Assembly: GCA_017849585.1 (NCBI GenBank)
Contig: JAFIGT010000015.1
Location: 62,001-126,000, forward strand
DNA: 64,000 bases
Reading direction: 5' to 3'
From: Verrucomicrobium sp.
GTDB taxonomy: Bacteria > Verrucomicrobiota > Verrucomicrobiia > Methylacidiphilales > UBA1321
Shown here: positions 52,279-63,261 of the stretch, in pieces
Layout: each line of letters opens with the position of its first letter
Position numbering within the stretch: the first letter of the stretch is position 1
The notes under the pieces: generated by a model
Databases searched by the model: none
Told to the model about the DNA's origin: nothing
What the model saw: the letters and a program-made list of their open reading frames with translations, nothing else
Translations under genes and position numbers: made by a program

Positions 52279-52989
52279 ATGAAACGAATCCACTCCTTGG
52301 CCCATGCTGGGCTTCTCATGGTCGGTGCCTTCCTGCTGCTTGCCACCTCACTTCCCGCAGCCGAGACCGGTCCTCGGACCAAGGAAAAGCAAGCCGCGCT
52401 CACGCCGGAACGTGTCTTGGAAAAGCTGAAGGCAGGCAATGAACGTTTCGCTCAAAACCAGCGTCGTGATCGCAATCATCTTCACGACGTGGATTTCACA
52501 GCCAAGGGACAATACCCCATTGCCGCCATCGTCGGTTGCATGGATTCCCGCGCTCCGCTGGCTTTGATATTTGATCAGGGGGTGGGCGACCTCTTTGCCA
52601 TTGGCATCGCGGGCAATGTCGTGAATCGCGATATTATTGGCAGTCTTGAATACGCCTGCAAGGTTGCCGGAGCGAAGGTGGTTCTCGTCCTCGGTCATAC
52701 CGAGTGCGGGGCCGTAAAAGGGGCAATCGATCATGTCGAACTCGGCAGCCTGACCGGACTACTGGAGAAGATTGATCCTGCCATCGACGAGGTGCCGGAC
52801 TCGATCCAGCCACGTACGTCGAAGAACTATGCGTTTGTCGACGCCGTGGCAGCCGCCAATGTCCACCGCATGGTGGCGCAGGTCCGCGAGGACAGCGGTA
52901 TCCTGGCGCGAATGGAAAAGGGCGGATCGATTAAGATCGTCGGCGGCCTCTATGATGTTGCCACGGGCCGGGTCACCTTCATCGACTAG
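52279..52989 (+). CDS. Exported beta-class carbonic anhydrase
   Basis: A protein of 236 residues with a signal peptide (MKRIHSLAHAGLLMVGAFLL, then LATSLPAAETG), so a periplasmic enzyme hydrating CO2 to bicarbonate. The zinc ligands and catalytic dyad are in VGCMDSRAPL (Cys, Asp, Arg) and LGHTECGAVKGAI (His, Cys), near residues 92 and 146. FDQGVGDLFAIGIAGNVVN and GSLEYACKVAGAKVV complete the family pattern. It is closely similar to the cytoplasmic form encoded about 220 bases downstream, indicating tandem duplication. Confidence 0.95.
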   Translation: MKRIHSLAHAGLLMVGAFLLLATSLPAAETGPRTKEKQAALTPERVLEKLKAGNERFAQNQRRDRNHLHDVDFTAKGQYPIAAIVGCMDSRAPLALIFDQGVGDLFAIGIAGNVVNRDIIGSLEYACKVAGAKVVLVLGHTECGAVKGAIDHVELGSLTGLLEKIDPAIDEVPDSIQPRTSKNYAFVDAVAAANVHRMVAQVREDSGILARMEKGGSIKIVGGLYDVATGRVTFID

Positions 52990-53007
52990 CATTTTTTTCA
53001 ATTTTCC

Positions 53008-53043
53008 AACTCCCGGGTGGGTTTGCCCGGGAGTTTCGTTTTT
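53008..53043 (+). terminator. Intrinsic terminator after the exported carbonic anhydrase gene
   Basis: AACTCCCGGG (53008-53017) pairs perfectly with CCCGGGAGTT (53026-53035), loop TGGGTTTG, followed by TCGTTTTT. It makes the two carbonic anhydrase genes separate transcripts. Confidence 0.88.
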
Positions 53044-53086
53044 CAGAGGGAGGGAATTAGGTTCGGAATGCGAAGGGAAATCGAGG

Positions 53087-53131
53087 TATAATCCCTGCTG
53101 ATGCTGGCCGATTCGATTCGATGGAATCGGC
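53087..53131 (+). promoter_or_regulatory. -10 element and leader hairpin of the second carbonic anhydrase gene
   Basis: A perfect TATAAT (53087-53092) with a weak -35 (TTCGGA at 53062). The transcript would start near 53099 and begin with the hairpin GCCGATTC (53107-53114), loop of nine, GAATCGGC (53124-53131). The leader to the ATG at 53206 is about 107 bases. Confidence 0.5.
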
Positions 53132-53205
53132 TTGTGATCCATTCAGCTTGTTCTAGATTTTCTCCGGTTGCTTTCTGCAGTAACACGAAAGCGATCCTGA
53201 ATACC

Positions 53206-53832
53206 ATGCATCGACTCTCTGCTGAACAAGTTCTCGAAAAGCTCCGCGCGGGCAACCGCCGCTTTGTCGAAAACCGCTCCCGTGATCGCGACCATCTCAA
53301 GGACATTGAGATCACCTCGCGCGCGCAATACCCCATAGCTGCAGTTGTTGGTTGCATGGATTCCCGCGCTCCTTCCACCATCATTTTTGACCAGGGGATT
53401 GGCGACATCTTTGCCATCTCACTGGCCGGAAACGTTATCAACGACGACGTCATCGGCAGCCTCGAATATGCCTGCAAAGTCGTCGGCTCCAAGGTCATCG
53501 TTATCCTCGGCCATACGGAATGTGGCGCGGTCAAGGGCGCCATCGATTGCGTATGTCTGGGCAAACTGACCGGACTTCTCGACCAGATCAAGCCGGTCAT
53601 CGCTCATGTCCCGGAATGTATCCAGCCGCGCACCTCCGACAATCCGGAGTTTGTCGATGCCGTGGCTCGCGCCAATGTGCGGCACATGATCGAGGAAGTC
53701 CGCCTGCGCAGTCCCATATTGACGGAGCTGGAACAAACCGGCTTGCTCGCTATTGAGGGCGGAATTTATGACGTTCGTTCCGGTCTGATTACGTTCTTCC
53801 GCGACTTGCAGGACTCGGAACCGCAGGGATAG
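53206..53832 (+). CDS. Cytoplasmic beta-class carbonic anhydrase
   Basis: A protein of 208 residues from the ATG at 53206 (MHRLSAEQVLEKLRAGNRRF); the frame is open upstream to 53101 but that stretch covers the leader hairpin. Zinc-site motifs VGCMDSRAPST and LGHTECGAVKGAID are identical in plan to the exported neighbour, and FDQGIGDIFAISLAGNVIND follows the same pattern. Without a signal peptide it would act in the cytoplasm, supplying bicarbonate for carboxylations or pH control. It is the second of a tandem pair with its own promoter. Confidence 0.95.
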   Translation: MHRLSAEQVLEKLRAGNRRFVENRSRDRDHLKDIEITSRAQYPIAAVVGCMDSRAPSTIIFDQGIGDIFAISLAGNVINDDVIGSLEYACKVVGSKVIVILGHTECGAVKGAIDCVCLGKLTGLLDQIKPVIAHVPECIQPRTSDNPEFVDAVARANVRHMIEEVRLRSPILTELEQTGLLAIEGGIYDVRSGLITFFRDLQDSEPQG

Positions 53833-57666: not shown

Positions 57667-58275
57667 CTACTTCTCCGTCTGGATATGCGGCAGTTCGATG
57701 GGCTTTTGTGACCAGTAGTAGAGCGTCGTGCCGATCAGGGTGCAGACCAGTCCGGCGACGATGAGAACGCCGGAGGCAAACCACGTGCTGATGATGAGGG
57801 GGAAGACCACGGTCTTTGGATGGGCGGGATCATAATAGACGAGGTCGGTGGTGGGCAGGCCGTCGGGATCGGTGAGGGTGTAGAGTGGCTTGAGCTGGCT
57901 GCCGACCGAGGCACGGACGCGGATGAGTTCCCCATTGTCGGTATGGAATTGGAATTCATTCCAGAACACGTAGCTGCGGTCATGGGATTCCAGCTTGGCT
58001 TGAATTTGGGCGTCGTCGGTGAGGATGAGATCTGGAAGCCCCTCCTTGGTTTTGACAACGGACACAACCTCAGCCTTGGCGCGCTTGCCGAAGGTGAGAA
58101 GACGCAGCGGCGTCCAGATATGGGAAAGGCCCAGTACAAAGAGCAGGAGACCGTAGCCGATCATCAGCAATTTGCGCTTCGAGTGCGCAGGCACGTAATG
58201 GCCCGGGACGGGAAATGCCTGCGAGGTGGAAGTGAGGTTGGGGATGGGATCGGATGGATGATCAGAGGGGTTCAT
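57667..58275 (-). CDS. DUF3592-like small membrane protein
   Basis: A protein of 202 residues with two membrane helices (LLMIGYGLLLFVLGLSHIW near 36-54; VVFPLIISTWFASGVLIVAG near 155-175) and between them a soluble region (AKAEVVSVVKTKEG, NEFQFHTDNGELIRVRASVG, LVYYDPAHPKTVVFP) with the pattern of DUF3592 proteins, where a conserved YDPxxP-like segment precedes the second helix. The function is unknown. Its start overlaps the stop of the transporter gene by four bases, so the two are probably translated together. Confidence 0.7.
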   Translation of the reverse strand: MNPSDHPSDPIPNLTSTSQAFPVPGHYVPAHSKRKLLMIGYGLLLFVLGLSHIWTPLRLLTFGKRAKAEVVSVVKTKEGLPDLILTDDAQIQAKLESHDRSYVFWNEFQFHTDNGELIRVRASVGSQLKPLYTLTDPDGLPTTDLVYYDPAHPKTVVFPLIISTWFASGVLIVAGLVCTLIGTTLYYWSQKPIELPHIQTEK

Positions 58276-60791
58276 GATGCTTGCGCCTCCTCGACGCCGC
58301 GCTTGTGAATGAGGCCTTTGGCTTCGAACCGGGCGAAGACCATGGTAATGGTGATGCCGATCAGGCCCATCAGGAGCATCCAGATGTAGCCGGACATATA
58401 ATTGTACTTCATCGGCGCGTACTCGGCGGTCAGCAGCGGCCGGGCCACCGTGATGCGTTGCAGGGCAGCCGATTTTTCAATACGGTCGTAGAACGCGCGC
58501 GCTTGGGGTAGCAGGTTATTTTGCGCGCCAAAGTAGGACTGCATCCGCAGGCTGATGGGGTCGTTGACCACCGTGGCCGCAGGTGCGTTGACCGGAATCA
58601 CCGCCGTGACGGTGATGGTCTTGGGTGCCGTGCCGGCATCGACGCGCACATGGTTGATGTCTGCGGGTGTGCGCAGGTTGCGCGCCGTGGCGGAAAGGCG
58701 GCGCTGTGGGCTGGGCACGGCGTCAAAGAGGCGCAGGATCACATTGACCACGCGTGTGATGGGCGAGACGTAGTCATCGACCGGCTTTTCCACGACCATT
58801 AAATTCAGCGCCAAGGCGGGAAGCTGCCGGATGCTGAGAGGAGCCGTGCCGGGAGTGAAAAGTCCCTTTTGTCGCAACGCAGAAACGCGTTCGACAGCAG
58901 CCTGCAGCTCGCGGGCAAGGACGAGTTCATTCTTTCCAGAGGGTAGAATGGCGCTGACCGCAATTCCGTAGCCAGTGTCGCGCTTCAGCGGTCGCAGATC
59001 GATGAGGTTGGGGAATTCCTGACGCAGATCGTTGAGATCTTGTTCCAATTCGTGAATATCGGGGCGTTTGTTGGTGGCGAGTTCGACAAGGACTGCTTGC
59101 TTGGTGCTGGCGCCGAGGACTTGATCGCCGTCAGTGATGAGCCGGGAAGCGAGCGCGGTGGTGACCTGTGTCTGAAACTTCTTCGCGCGTTCGGCCAGCG
59201 TGGCGTCGATTCCGTCAATTTGTTTGGTGAGCTCGGCGATGCGGGTGCTCTTAGCGTCTGCTTTTTGAGTGGTCTCGGACGCCGCCGTAGTCTGATTCTT
59301 GCGTGTTTGGTTGAACGCTTTGTCGCGGAGCAGTTTTTCCTCGGAAATCAGCATGGACCGTTCCTTGATCAACTCGTCCTTCCGCTTGGCGAGTTTTTCG
59401 CTCTCCTTGTTGCGCAGGCGAATTTCCCAGGCGCGACCCGTATCGCTGACGGTGCCATTGGCCTGCCAGGCGTTGGCTTCAATATTGGCGGCAGGGGCTT
59501 TGCTGTTGTCCTGCGGATAGGTCCAGATCGGATTCGCTCGGAGTTCTGCGCGCACTTCGGTTTTTTGATTCTGATCGCCGTTCAGCACCACACGGGCCAT
59601 TTCCCCGGCAGGCGGTTGGAAGAGGAGGGCGTAGGCCCAGATGAACAGGCCGACACCGTTGAGGGTGACGAGTCCGGTGACCCGGGTGACGAGAGCCGCA
59701 CCGGCAAAGTAGGTGCCCATTTTATTGCGGCGGATGTAATCGTAGACAAGGGGGACGTAGACCATGCTGGTGAGCAGACCGATGATGGAACCGGTTTCGC
59801 CGAAGGCGATGATTTCCACCAGCGAAGGCCGTTGATCGGGCAGGACGAACGTGACGTAGCAGAAATAGCTGAAGTTCAGCGCGACGGAGATGCAGATCAA
59901 AGTGCGATACGCCTTCATCCGGTTGAGCTTGTCGGCGAAGATGGTGAGCAGACCAATGATGAACATGTTGAGCACGCCGCCAACGGCGACGTTGATGCCC
60001 ATGTCCTGCTTGGTGTAGTTCCACTGGTCGGTGTAGAGCAGATTGCCGAGTGGCCCGAGTCCCGCCGCGAGCGTGGCGGAGCCGAAGACGAGCATGTAGA
60101 CCGGCCACAGTTCGGGATCGAGCAGGCCGCCAAAGAAGTTTTTGAGTGTGAGCTTTTGGCCGACGAGTTTGCTCTTCTGGTCGATTTCCTTGATTCCAAG
60201 CATGATCAACAGCAGCATCACGGTGAGGAGCAATCCGGCGGACCAGTAGATGACATCTTCCCCGACGAACGGCACGCCGGCCATGAAGGTGACATCATCG
60301 AATCGGCCCAGCGCGATGAAATAGAAGACCACGCCGGCGAGGTTGGTGCACCATTGCATGGCACCAGTGGCGCGGCCGCGTTCGTGAGGCGGAATGATCT
60401 CCTGCTTAAGCGGCTCCAGCGGTGTGTTCAGGTCGCTGAAAAAATAATAAGCCATGTAGACCGCGACCAATCCCCAAAAGTTGGGCATGAGCGGCATGAG
60501 AATCAGGCAGGTTGCTATGCCGGTCCACGATGTGACGATAAAGGGCTTGCGTCGTCCGAAGCGGGTCCAGATGCGATCGGAGATGAAACTGACGCAGGGG
60601 CCGAAGAGGATGGAGAGGAAGGTCGGCAGGCTGAGAATAAAAGTGAGACCTGCGGGATTCTCGACGAACTTTTTCAGCGAAAAAAGAAACGCGACGCCCA
60701 CGACACCCCACGTGTAACCGAACGACGCCCAGGGGAGGATCGAGAAGAAAATCCAACGCGGGGGGATCTCTTTTTTGCACGTAATGATCAT
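58272..60791 (-). CDS. MFS/GPH-type sugar transporter with a large insertion before the last helix
   Basis: A protein of 839 residues. Eleven hydrophobic helices (residues about 12-390) follow the MFS plan, with the loop motif DRIWTRFGRRKPFIV between helices 2 and 3 typical of glycoside-pentoside-hexuronide and sucrose-type symporters. A stretch of about 400 residues then precedes the final helix (YIWMLLMGLIGITITMVFA, about 805-825). The insert begins Lys/Glu-rich and coiled-coil-like (about 465-540) and continues with a soluble region of mixed character. If the N-terminus is cytoplasmic, the insert is periplasmic. It lies downstream of the GH2 gene and overlaps the DUF3592-like gene. Confidence 0.85.
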   Translation of the reverse strand: MIITCKKEIPPRWIFFSILPWASFGYTWGVVGVAFLFSLKKFVENPAGLTFILSLPTFLSILFGPCVSFISDRIWTRFGRRKPFIVTSWTGIATCLILMPLMPNFWGLVAVYMAYYFFSDLNTPLEPLKQEIIPPHERGRATGAMQWCTNLAGVVFYFIALGRFDDVTFMAGVPFVGEDVIYWSAGLLLTVMLLLIMLGIKEIDQKSKLVGQKLTLKNFFGGLLDPELWPVYMLVFGSATLAAGLGPLGNLLYTDQWNYTKQDMGINVAVGGVLNMFIIGLLTIFADKLNRMKAYRTLICISVALNFSYFCYVTFVLPDQRPSLVEIIAFGETGSIIGLLTSMVYVPLVYDYIRRNKMGTYFAGAALVTRVTGLVTLNGVGLFIWAYALLFQPPAGEMARVVLNGDQNQKTEVRAELRANPIWTYPQDNSKAPAANIEANAWQANGTVSDTGRAWEIRLRNKESEKLAKRKDELIKERSMLISEEKLLRDKAFNQTRKNQTTAASETTQKADAKSTRIAELTKQIDGIDATLAERAKKFQTQVTTALASRLITDGDQVLGASTKQAVLVELATNKRPDIHELEQDLNDLRQEFPNLIDLRPLKRDTGYGIAVSAILPSGKNELVLARELQAAVERVSALRQKGLFTPGTAPLSIRQLPALALNLMVVEKPVDDYVSPITRVVNVILRLFDAVPSPQRRLSATARNLRTPADINHVRVDAGTAPKTITVTAVIPVNAPAATVVNDPISLRMQSYFGAQNNLLPQARAFYDRIEKSAALQRITVARPLLTAEYAPMKYNYMSGYIWMLLMGLIGITITMVFARFEAKGLIHKRGVEEAQAS

Positions 60792-60981: not shown

Positions 60982-63261
60982 CTAATGCCCGTAAACTTGG
61001 GAAATCCACTGGCGATAGTGCGTGGGGTCGAACGGCGGATTACCAGAGAGGTAATGGTTGAGGCCCTTGCCTTGCGCGCTACTCCATTCGATGACGAGGA
61101 AACGGGCTTCGCTGCGGGTGTAGGGGACCTCCTGGGCGAGCGTGACGGCGTCCGGCGCTGCGGCGCACTGGCCCTCGGCGATGATCTTGTCATGGGCGAG
61201 GTCGCGCACGGTGTAGCGGAGGTCGAGGGTGTCGCGCGTGTCGTTGCAGACGACGAGATCGTGATTCCAGCCGCGCGATTCGCGGAACATCACGAGCACG
61301 GGTTGTTGCACGCGACGGATGAAGTGGTAGGCGAGCTTCTTGTTGAAATAGTAATCAACGACAGCGTCAGAGAATTGTGGCCAGCCGTCCATGAGGTTCC
61401 ACCAGAGCAACCCGGTGCGACGCCATTTCGCGCCCCGGAAAAGTTCGATGAAGAACTTCTTGGCTTCGGCCTGCACGCATTGGCTCTGGAAGGCGAAATC
61501 GTCGAGGTTGTCCGGAACGCGGCCGAACATCTCGCGGATTTGATTGCTCATGAGCTCGATGCGGTAGTCGTACAAATTTACGCCGGGAACGGGAGAGGTG
61601 GCGTGGAGCAGCCATTCGTCGTTGCCGGGCGGCCAGAGTTTCGCGGGGGAGATGAATTTTTTGATCGATTCAGGCGAGGGACAACCATGATAGCCCATCT
61701 CGCTGGCGAAGTGGGCGAGCGATTGTTCGTAGAACGGACTCTTGAAGTAATCGCGCGGACCCCAGAGATGATTTTCCGGCAGACGCGATTCGTCGGCCTT
61801 GAGCGCTTCGGCATCGATGTAAGGCGACGAGGGAAGGTAGGGACGGCGTGGGTCCTCGGCCTGCAGCACGCGGGGCAGTACTTCGCGGGTGAGGCGATTG
61901 GCTTCGGGGGAAGCACCTTTGATCCAGTAGTAGGCTTGATCGCATTCGTTGTCCCCGGCCCAGAGCGCGAGGGAGGGATGCTGGCGCAGACGACGCACGA
62001 CAGCGCGGGCTTCGGTTTCGAGCACCTTGCAGAACGCGTCGTCCTTCGGATAGTAGCCGCACGCCATGGCGAAGTCCTGCCAGATCAGGATGCCGTGCTC
62101 GTCGCAGAAATCGAAGAAGCAGTCGGGCTCGTAGACATTGCCACCCCAGCAGCGGAGCATGTTGCAGCCGGAGTCGAGGACGAGCTCGAGAATCTTGGGA
62201 ATGCGCTCGGCGTCGCGCGAATGATACGCGTCGGCGGGCACCCAGTTGCTGCCGTGGATGAAGACCTTCTCGCCGTTGACGAGGAAACAGAATTCGCCAT
62301 TGCCTGTGTTGTCAGTGGTGCTGGTGCGGCGCAGTTCGAGCGAGCGGATGCCGTGACGGAATTGCGCGCGGTCAATGGGTTGGCCGTTTTTCAGGAGAAC
62401 CACGGTGACATTGTAGAGCGATTGCGGACCGCGGTTGCGCGGCCACCAGAGGCGGGGATTGGAGATCTCGACGAAGGCGCGGCCTGCCTCGAACAGGACG
62501 ACGGTTTTCTGGTGAAAAGTGGAGTCGCCGCAGGAGCCGGTGATTTCGAGCTCGTATTTATTGGCCACTTCAGAGCCAAGCCGGGCGCGGAAATGAAGCG
62601 TCAACCGGGCCTCGCGGGCCGAGCAACTCATCGTGTCGAGGAAGAGCGTTTCGATTCGCTCATCGGGAAGATACTCGATGCGCACGGGACGCCACAGTCC
62701 CGCCGAGACGGCGCGCGGCATGATGTCCCATCCATACATGTGCGGTGCCTTGCGGACGTGAATGGCGTCGTAGTTGCTGCCGAGCGCGTTGAGGCCGGGC
62801 GGGTAGTCGAATTTGCGGGCCTCTTCGACCGCCGGGCGGATGTGGATGAGCAACTCGTTGCCTTCCGCGCGCGCGCCAGTGAGCGGCAGGGTGTGCGCGA
62901 TGAGCATATTCGCGCAGGAGCCGATGTGCTGGCCGTTGAGGTAGACCTCGGCAAAACAGTCGACGCCTTCCAGAACGAGCACAGGCGTTGTGCCGGGGTG
63001 CGGTGGGAGATCGAACGTGCGGAAGTACCAGACATGCGCACCTTCGTACTGACGCAGGCCCGTGATGTTCATGCCGTGGAAGGGCTCCTCAATGAGGCCA
63101 TGCTTTTGCAGGTCGAGCTCGAAGTTGCCGGGAACCTGACAGTCCAGCGCGCGCAGCCCGCTCTGCTCGAGTTGGGCGATGGTGGTGGGTTCGGCGGGAG
63201 TGAGGCTCCAAGCGAAGGACCAGGAACCGTTCAAGTCGAGAGTGGAGCGATCGGTGAACAT
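60982..63261 (-). CDS. GH2 beta-mannosidase-like glycosidase
   Basis: A protein of 759 residues resembling GH2 beta-mannosidases, which cleave terminal beta-mannose. The N-terminal jellyroll (LDLNGSWSFAWSL, QVPGNFELDL, EVYLNGQHIGSCAN) and the sandwich domain lead to the TIM barrel: GSNWVPADAYHSRDAERIPK, MLRCWGGNVYEPDCFFDFCD, GILIWQDFAMACGYYP, with the acid/base Glu in WAGDNECDQ (usually GNNE) and a nucleophile candidate in ASEMGYHGCPSPESI. No signal peptide, so cytoplasmic action on imported oligosaccharides is likely. It is 190 bases upstream of the transporter on the same strand. Confidence 0.88.
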   Translation of the reverse strand: MFTDRSTLDLNGSWSFAWSLTPAEPTTIAQLEQSGLRALDCQVPGNFELDLQKHGLIEEPFHGMNITGLRQYEGAHVWYFRTFDLPPHPGTTPVLVLEGVDCFAEVYLNGQHIGSCANMLIAHTLPLTGARAEGNELLIHIRPAVEEARKFDYPPGLNALGSNYDAIHVRKAPHMYGWDIMPRAVSAGLWRPVRIEYLPDERIETLFLDTMSCSAREARLTLHFRARLGSEVANKYELEITGSCGDSTFHQKTVVLFEAGRAFVEISNPRLWWPRNRGPQSLYNVTVVLLKNGQPIDRAQFRHGIRSLELRRTSTTDNTGNGEFCFLVNGEKVFIHGSNWVPADAYHSRDAERIPKILELVLDSGCNMLRCWGGNVYEPDCFFDFCDEHGILIWQDFAMACGYYPKDDAFCKVLETEARAVVRRLRQHPSLALWAGDNECDQAYYWIKGASPEANRLTREVLPRVLQAEDPRRPYLPSSPYIDAEALKADESRLPENHLWGPRDYFKSPFYEQSLAHFASEMGYHGCPSPESIKKFISPAKLWPPGNDEWLLHATSPVPGVNLYDYRIELMSNQIREMFGRVPDNLDDFAFQSQCVQAEAKKFFIELFRGAKWRRTGLLWWNLMDGWPQFSDAVVDYYFNKKLAYHFIRRVQQPVLVMFRESRGWNHDLVVCNDTRDTLDLRYTVRDLAHDKIIAEGQCAAAPDAVTLAQEVPYTRSEARFLVIEWSSAQGKGLNHYLSGNPPFDPTHYRQWISQVYGH

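Follow-up and report, generated by a model that had tools for sequence, protein, structure and literature searches.

A GPH/SUC-like MFS transporter of Verrucomicrobiota with a large insert between TM11 and TM12, predicted to be periplasmic, and an obligate DUF3592-like companion

Introduction

Symporters of the GPH/SUC type have about 450–530 residues, with a longer chain in SLC45A4. Bacterial MFS carriers usually consist of a single chain and have no auxiliary subunits, and receptor-dependent transport has so far been associated with ABC, TRAP, and TTT systems. A large extracytoplasmic domain within one MFS loop occurs in OCT/OAT (TM1–2), SV2 (TM7–8), and PepT1/2 (TM9–10). The Verrucomicrobiota are degraders of many glycans.

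The TM11–TM12 loop carries an extracytoplasmic element in the DHA2 transporters of the MFS Rv1410/P55 and QacA, in which it is needed for transport; truncation of the TM11–TM12 extension of Rv1410 homologues, or deletion of that of QacA, leads to loss of transport (PMC10576003). The window analyzed here is a stretch of 64,000 nucleotides from Verrucomicrobium sp. (contig JAFIGT010000015.1, positions 62,001 to 126,000), and coordinates without a locus label refer to it. It encodes an MFS transporter with a much larger domain in the same loop, together with a small membrane protein that accompanies this domain wherever it was found.

Results

MFS core of the transporter

The transporter gene, MFS (GPH/SUC-like) by Pfam, hydropathy, and AlphaFold2 (AF2), is an 839-aa ORF on the minus strand, reading from 60791 to 58272 with an ATG start and zero internal stops. 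A forward-strand gene at 58272–60791 was rejected because the reading frame is broken on that strand. Residues 1–393 (59613–60791, minus strand) comprise TM1–TM11 and are covered by the Pfam families MFS_1 and MFS_2; the alignment showed the motif SDRIWTRFGRRKPF and a conserved GRFDD in this part. TM12 and a cytoplasmic tail follow the insert as residues 798–839 plus the stop codon (58272–58400, minus strand; hydropathy, AF2, and structural alignment).

The first-pass annotation had described the core as MFS/GPH-type, and the profiles agreed with it. MFS_1 (PF07690) matched residues 24–371 with 58 bits against a cut-off of 33.4, and MFS_2 (PF13347, the GPH sugar:cation symporters) matched residues 46–383 with a marginal 28 bits against a cut-off of 27. 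TIGR01301 (GPH_sucrose) stayed far under its cut-off and covered residues 61–99 only. The closest solved sequences were SUC1 (E 4e-6), MFSD2A, and SLC45A4. Hydropathy placed helices between residues 18 and 391 and at 802–820, with TM4 falling below the threshold used; hydropathy and AF2 together gave 12 helices. Structural alignment of the whole model to MFS structures yielded Z of about 26–28 with the post-insert helix included. This helix occupies the TM12 place of known MFS structures, and the alignments extend to about residue 820–839. MelB was among the best structural alignments, and SV2A and OCT1 were also among the alignments obtained. With its 12-helix fold and these profile matches, the core is MFS and GPH/SUC-like.

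Position and reality of the insert

The insert comprises 404 residues (394–797; 58401–59612, minus strand) and is placed exactly in the TM11–TM12 loop, as delimited by the alignment, the AF2 model, and a single clade of 25 proteins. The seven relatives without the insert that were retained in the core tree have 3–5 residues in this loop. The annotated position before the last helix therefore held, residues 394–797 being followed by TM12 at 802–820. So did the expectation that the insert has no additional membrane helices: no real helix was found by hydropathy in residues 392–801, and the AF2 model showed none. One marginal hydropathy peak at 725–743 was considered as a membrane helix and rejected, as it is a strand in the AF2 model. 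With 12 helices, the positively charged loops of the transporter lie on the cytoplasmic side, and the TM11–TM12 loop would for this reason be extracytoplasmic. Helix parity and the topology rule thus speak for the annotated side of the membrane, and the insert is predicted to be periplasmic.

Full-length insert-bearing relatives with 34–95% identity were found in Verrucomicrobiota by searching the relatives' whole genomes and the GTDB species genomes. The search for other MFS proteins with the same insert, proposed with the annotation, returned 25 distinct proteins from more than one class. All of them formed one clade with support of 100/99 in a core tree from which the insert was left out, showing a single origin of the insert. 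We discarded an initial tree that included distant outgroups and showed very long branches. In the nearest pair, dN/dS was 0.07 for the insert and 0.02 for the core, so the insert is under purifying selection; given this value and its presence in all 25 clade members, the insert is not a matter of chance. Compared with the core, the insert diverges more quickly (37% vs. 61% mean pairwise identity), and seven of its residues are invariant. Conservation is highest at both junctions and in short motifs around W442, E456–R458, E668–P677, and F689. Low identity combined with seven invariant residues fits a structural role and a copy-specific binding site equally well.

In a close relative from a Chthoniobacteraceae MAG (L049:5100-7631), the transporter is split into ORFs of 312 and 518 aa, by a sequencing error or as a pseudogene. 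This split ORF is the one observation on the side of a fusion, frameshift, assembly artifact, or decaying chimera as the source of the long frame. An error of the frame, assembly, or fusion was rejected in view of the 25 distinct proteins across classes, their one supported clade, and dN/dS of 0.02–0.15 in core and insert. We regard such an origin as extremely improbable; the fusion error that the annotation had named as a possible refutation is contradicted by recurrence in relatives and by purifying selection.

Pfam, NCBIfam, and PDB sequences contained no known domain matching the insert beyond coiled-coil chance matches and a weak match to ribosomal protein S6. A plasmid search with the insert gave no match. 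In a search of 384 genomes from the class, the insert was not found outside the MFS frame, with the sole exception of a coiled-coil chance match in one genome (G516).

Fold of the insert

The AF2 model of the window transporter was built on a shallow alignment of 13 sequences, from which the insert was modeled well and the membrane part poorly. Means over 10-residue blocks of the insert were mostly 80–94, the lowest being 72. The model of a relative that is naturally fused to its partner (L058) gave nearly identical secondary structure for the insert, again with block means mostly of 80–94. Both describe mixed alpha/beta lobes and a coiled-coil hairpin. The hairpin is not the start of the insert, as had been annotated: about 65 beta-rich residues (396–461) precede it, and two alpha/beta lobes follow.

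The first part, residues 396–461 (59409–59606, minus strand), has the order beta-alpha-beta-beta in AF2, with strand 396–403, helix 410–419, and strands 437–441 and 454–460, and contains the invariant W442, E456, and R458. The two-helix coiled-coil hairpin occupies residues 462–546 (59154–59408, minus strand; AF2), with arms of 36–46 residues, and differs in length among relatives. Three of them (L086, L080, and L072) have a shorter hairpin or low-complexity sequence in its place. The second lobe, residues 556–666 (58794–59126, minus strand), and the third lobe, residues 653–792 (58416–58835, minus strand), both have the order beta-alpha-beta-beta-alpha-beta in AF2; the invariant S676–P677 and F689 lie in the third. 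Along the chain, strand 558–573 is followed by a helix, two strands, a helix, strand 653–666, helices, two strands, helices, and strand 786–792, which leads into TM12. The long strands are 558–573 and 653–666, the latter being common to the second and third lobes.

In both AF2 models, the beta-alpha-beta-beta-alpha-beta order thus occurs in residues 556–666, 653–792, and also 396–573, where the coiled coil takes the place of the second helix. The secondary structure suggests that the insert may be built of three units of ferredoxin-like order that share long strands. Ribosomal protein S6, which has the ferredoxin-like (beta-alpha-beta-beta-alpha-beta) fold, was weakly matched by residues 689–752 in the profile search (E 0.011). 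Profile comparison revealed no sequence repeats among the three lobes beyond their shared, overlapping strands. The fold search was made with the whole transporter model and returned essentially only MFS-core matches, which say nothing on the novelty of the insert fold.

The DUF3592-like companion

The stop codon of the transporter gene overlaps the start codon of the next gene as ATGA (58272–58275, minus strand, read directly from the sequence). The second gene (57667–58275, minus strand) encodes a DUF3592-like protein of 202 aa with helices at residues 36–54 and 160–178, a soluble part of about 105 residues between them (55–159), and cytoplasmic ends of 35 and 24 residues. Its assignment to DUF3592 (PF12158) is tentative: four of 17 partner relatives matched weakly (best E 1.9e-4), and the window's own partner had no match. 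Two helices flanking a small beta-rich part are a feature it shares with the proteins of PF12158; the difference is that here the protein is linked to a transporter. Our search of open-access papers found no report of DUF3592 with transporters.

The annotation had named this ATGA-linked protein as a possible partner, which the genomes bear out. Profiles of the insert and of the partner hit the same 14 of the 384 genomes of the class, with 18 loci for either profile and the two lying next to each other or within a single ORF; outside this pattern there were the coiled-coil chance match of the insert profile and one short generic match of the partner profile. The partner is present with 25 of 25 members of the insert clade, and in 8 of the 25 it forms one ORF with the transporter (L057, L058, L060, L065, L066, L075, L079, and L080; in L060, masked bases begin after the match). 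In the core tree, the fusions occur in two parts. The partner is thus an obligate companion of the insert. In the fusions, the cytoplasmic end of TM12 leads into the first helix of the partner, which would put the partner's soluble part and the insert on one side of the membrane. Fusion and co-occurrence together suggest contact between the two, and since the insert is always found with the partner and sometimes fused to it, the transporter is likely to be a machine made of two parts.

The insert-free sister clade

Downstream of each of the nearest insert-free relatives (L064 in genome G016, L089 in G104, and L034 in G365) lies a two-helix protein of 327–361 residues; the pairs in G016 and G365 lie at L064:3692-6138 and L034:1339-3910. 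By profile comparison, both ends of this long partner are homologous to the small partner (E 4.8e-6 and 5.5e-5); the stretch separating the two ends adds about 150 residues. A long partner scored 23.2 with PF12158 against a cut-off of 25.3. Profile comparison found no similarity between the extra part and the MFS insert. Farther insert-free relatives (L008, L009, L035, and L036) are without a partner. Under a midpoint root, the companion would have come first and the insert later, once. A plain carrier with a large partner in one clade, as opposed to an insert with a small partner in the other, suggests that the extracytoplasmic mass may be borne either by the partner or by the carrier.

Gene neighborhood

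A GH2-family glycoside hydrolase gene (60982–63261, minus strand) lies upstream of the transporter gene on the same strand and probably belongs to the same transcription unit. Farther upstream on this strand, from 63513 to the window end (L062:13514-16460), there are a FAD-dependent oxidoreductase (PF12831) and an ADP-ribosylglycohydrolase-type protein. Two tandem genes elsewhere in the window (52279–53832; L062:2280-3833) have a common motif like 'VLEKLKAGN.RF' and may encode carbonic anhydrase-like proteins; a signal-like N-terminus is present in the first. At other loci, glycoside hydrolases and sugar-type regulators are common neighbors; among the genes found there are GH3, GH38, GH130, GH78, GH43, GH1, and CBM proteins as well as LacI-, GntR-, and AraC-type regulators; the partner is constant while the other neighbors vary by locus. 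The genome of the window has a second pair (G000:C14:126537-129601; L028, L063), the transporter of which is 57% identical and which adjoins a GntR regulator with a sugar-binding domain and GFO/IDH/MocA oxidoreductases. The neighbors support a role in carbohydrate uptake, with a substrate that probably differs by locus, and neighbors and family together point to glycosides or oligosaccharides as the likely substrate class.

Frequent regulators, and the occurrence of two paralogous pairs per genome with different neighbors, could also suggest that insert and partner act like a transceptor, as substrate sensor and as regulator of the transporter or the locus. Yet there is no conserved signaling output domain, the cytoplasmic ends of the partner are short, and the nearby LacI/GntR/AraC regulators bind their own ligands, so that we consider sensing improbable.

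Discussion

The reading that we favor, with some reservation, is a GPH-like glycoside symporter in which insert and partner would form a composite periplasmic module that receives or gates the substrate. An inner-membrane MFS symporter would import a glycoside or oligosaccharide linked to the neighboring glycoside hydrolases, with TM1–12 performing alternating access. The insert, in the periplasm, and the soluble domain of the partner would together cover the periplasmic mouth as a composite cap, attached to the C-terminal half via TM11 and TM12. The most likely role of the cap in the alternating-access cycle would be to receive the substrate or gate access, followed in likelihood by that of a scaffold or docking site. 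While the architecture of the module is well supported, its function is deduced, and capture or gating by the cap is a guess. Two points make it our best guess: the insert is suspended from two helices of the C-terminal bundle, and transport is lost when the smaller TM11–TM12 extension is truncated in Rv1410 homologues or deleted in QacA (PMC10576003). A more specific version, in which the insert and the DUF3592-like subunit capture a periplasmic glycoside and hand it to the MFS carrier in a receptor-dependent manner, making DUF3592-like domains transporter subunits, seems to us doubtful.

The main rival, though unlikely, is that insert and partner serve as a scaffold or docking platform that places an ordinary symporter beside hydrolases, peptidoglycan, or an outer-membrane channel. 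The hairpin resembles a protein–protein docking element, the insert diverges faster than the core, and the TM11–TM12 extensions of Rv1410 were proposed to position the lipoprotein LprG (PMC10576003). On the other hand, no conserved third gene was seen beside the pair, the hydrolases vary by locus, and the hairpin varies in length, its arms being too short to span the periplasm. Being short and variable in length, the hairpin is also unlikely to serve as a fixed outer-membrane bridge. Receipt or gating of the substrate by the composite module remains the reading we prefer.

In the insert clade with its obligate, sometimes fused two-helix partner, the idea of a composite MFS carrier can be tested on a concrete example, which also gives a first hint at the function of a DUF3592-like family. 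The clade is of further relevance to how glycan breakdown products are imported by Verrucomicrobiota.

The GPH/SUC-type symporters (MelB, plant SUC1, and SLC45; TC 2.A.2) share the MFS core and the RxGRRxPF-type motif with the transporter, and we know of none with a TM11–TM12 domain or a DUF3592-like partner. The domains of OCT/OAT, SV2, and PepT1/2 differ in loop and in fold and are eukaryotic; to our knowledge, they have no co-conserved two-helix partner. For an MFS protein with a TM11–TM12 domain, in Verrucomicrobiota or elsewhere, the only precedent in our search of open-access papers was Rv1410/QacA. Rv1410/P55 and QacA have their extracytoplasmic element in the same loop as the insert; they are DHA2 exporters of 14 helices in which the extension is short and helical, whereas the transporter described here has 12 helices and a folded domain of ~400 residues. 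With 12 rather than 14 helices, it is not a DHA2 exporter of the Rv1410/QacA type.
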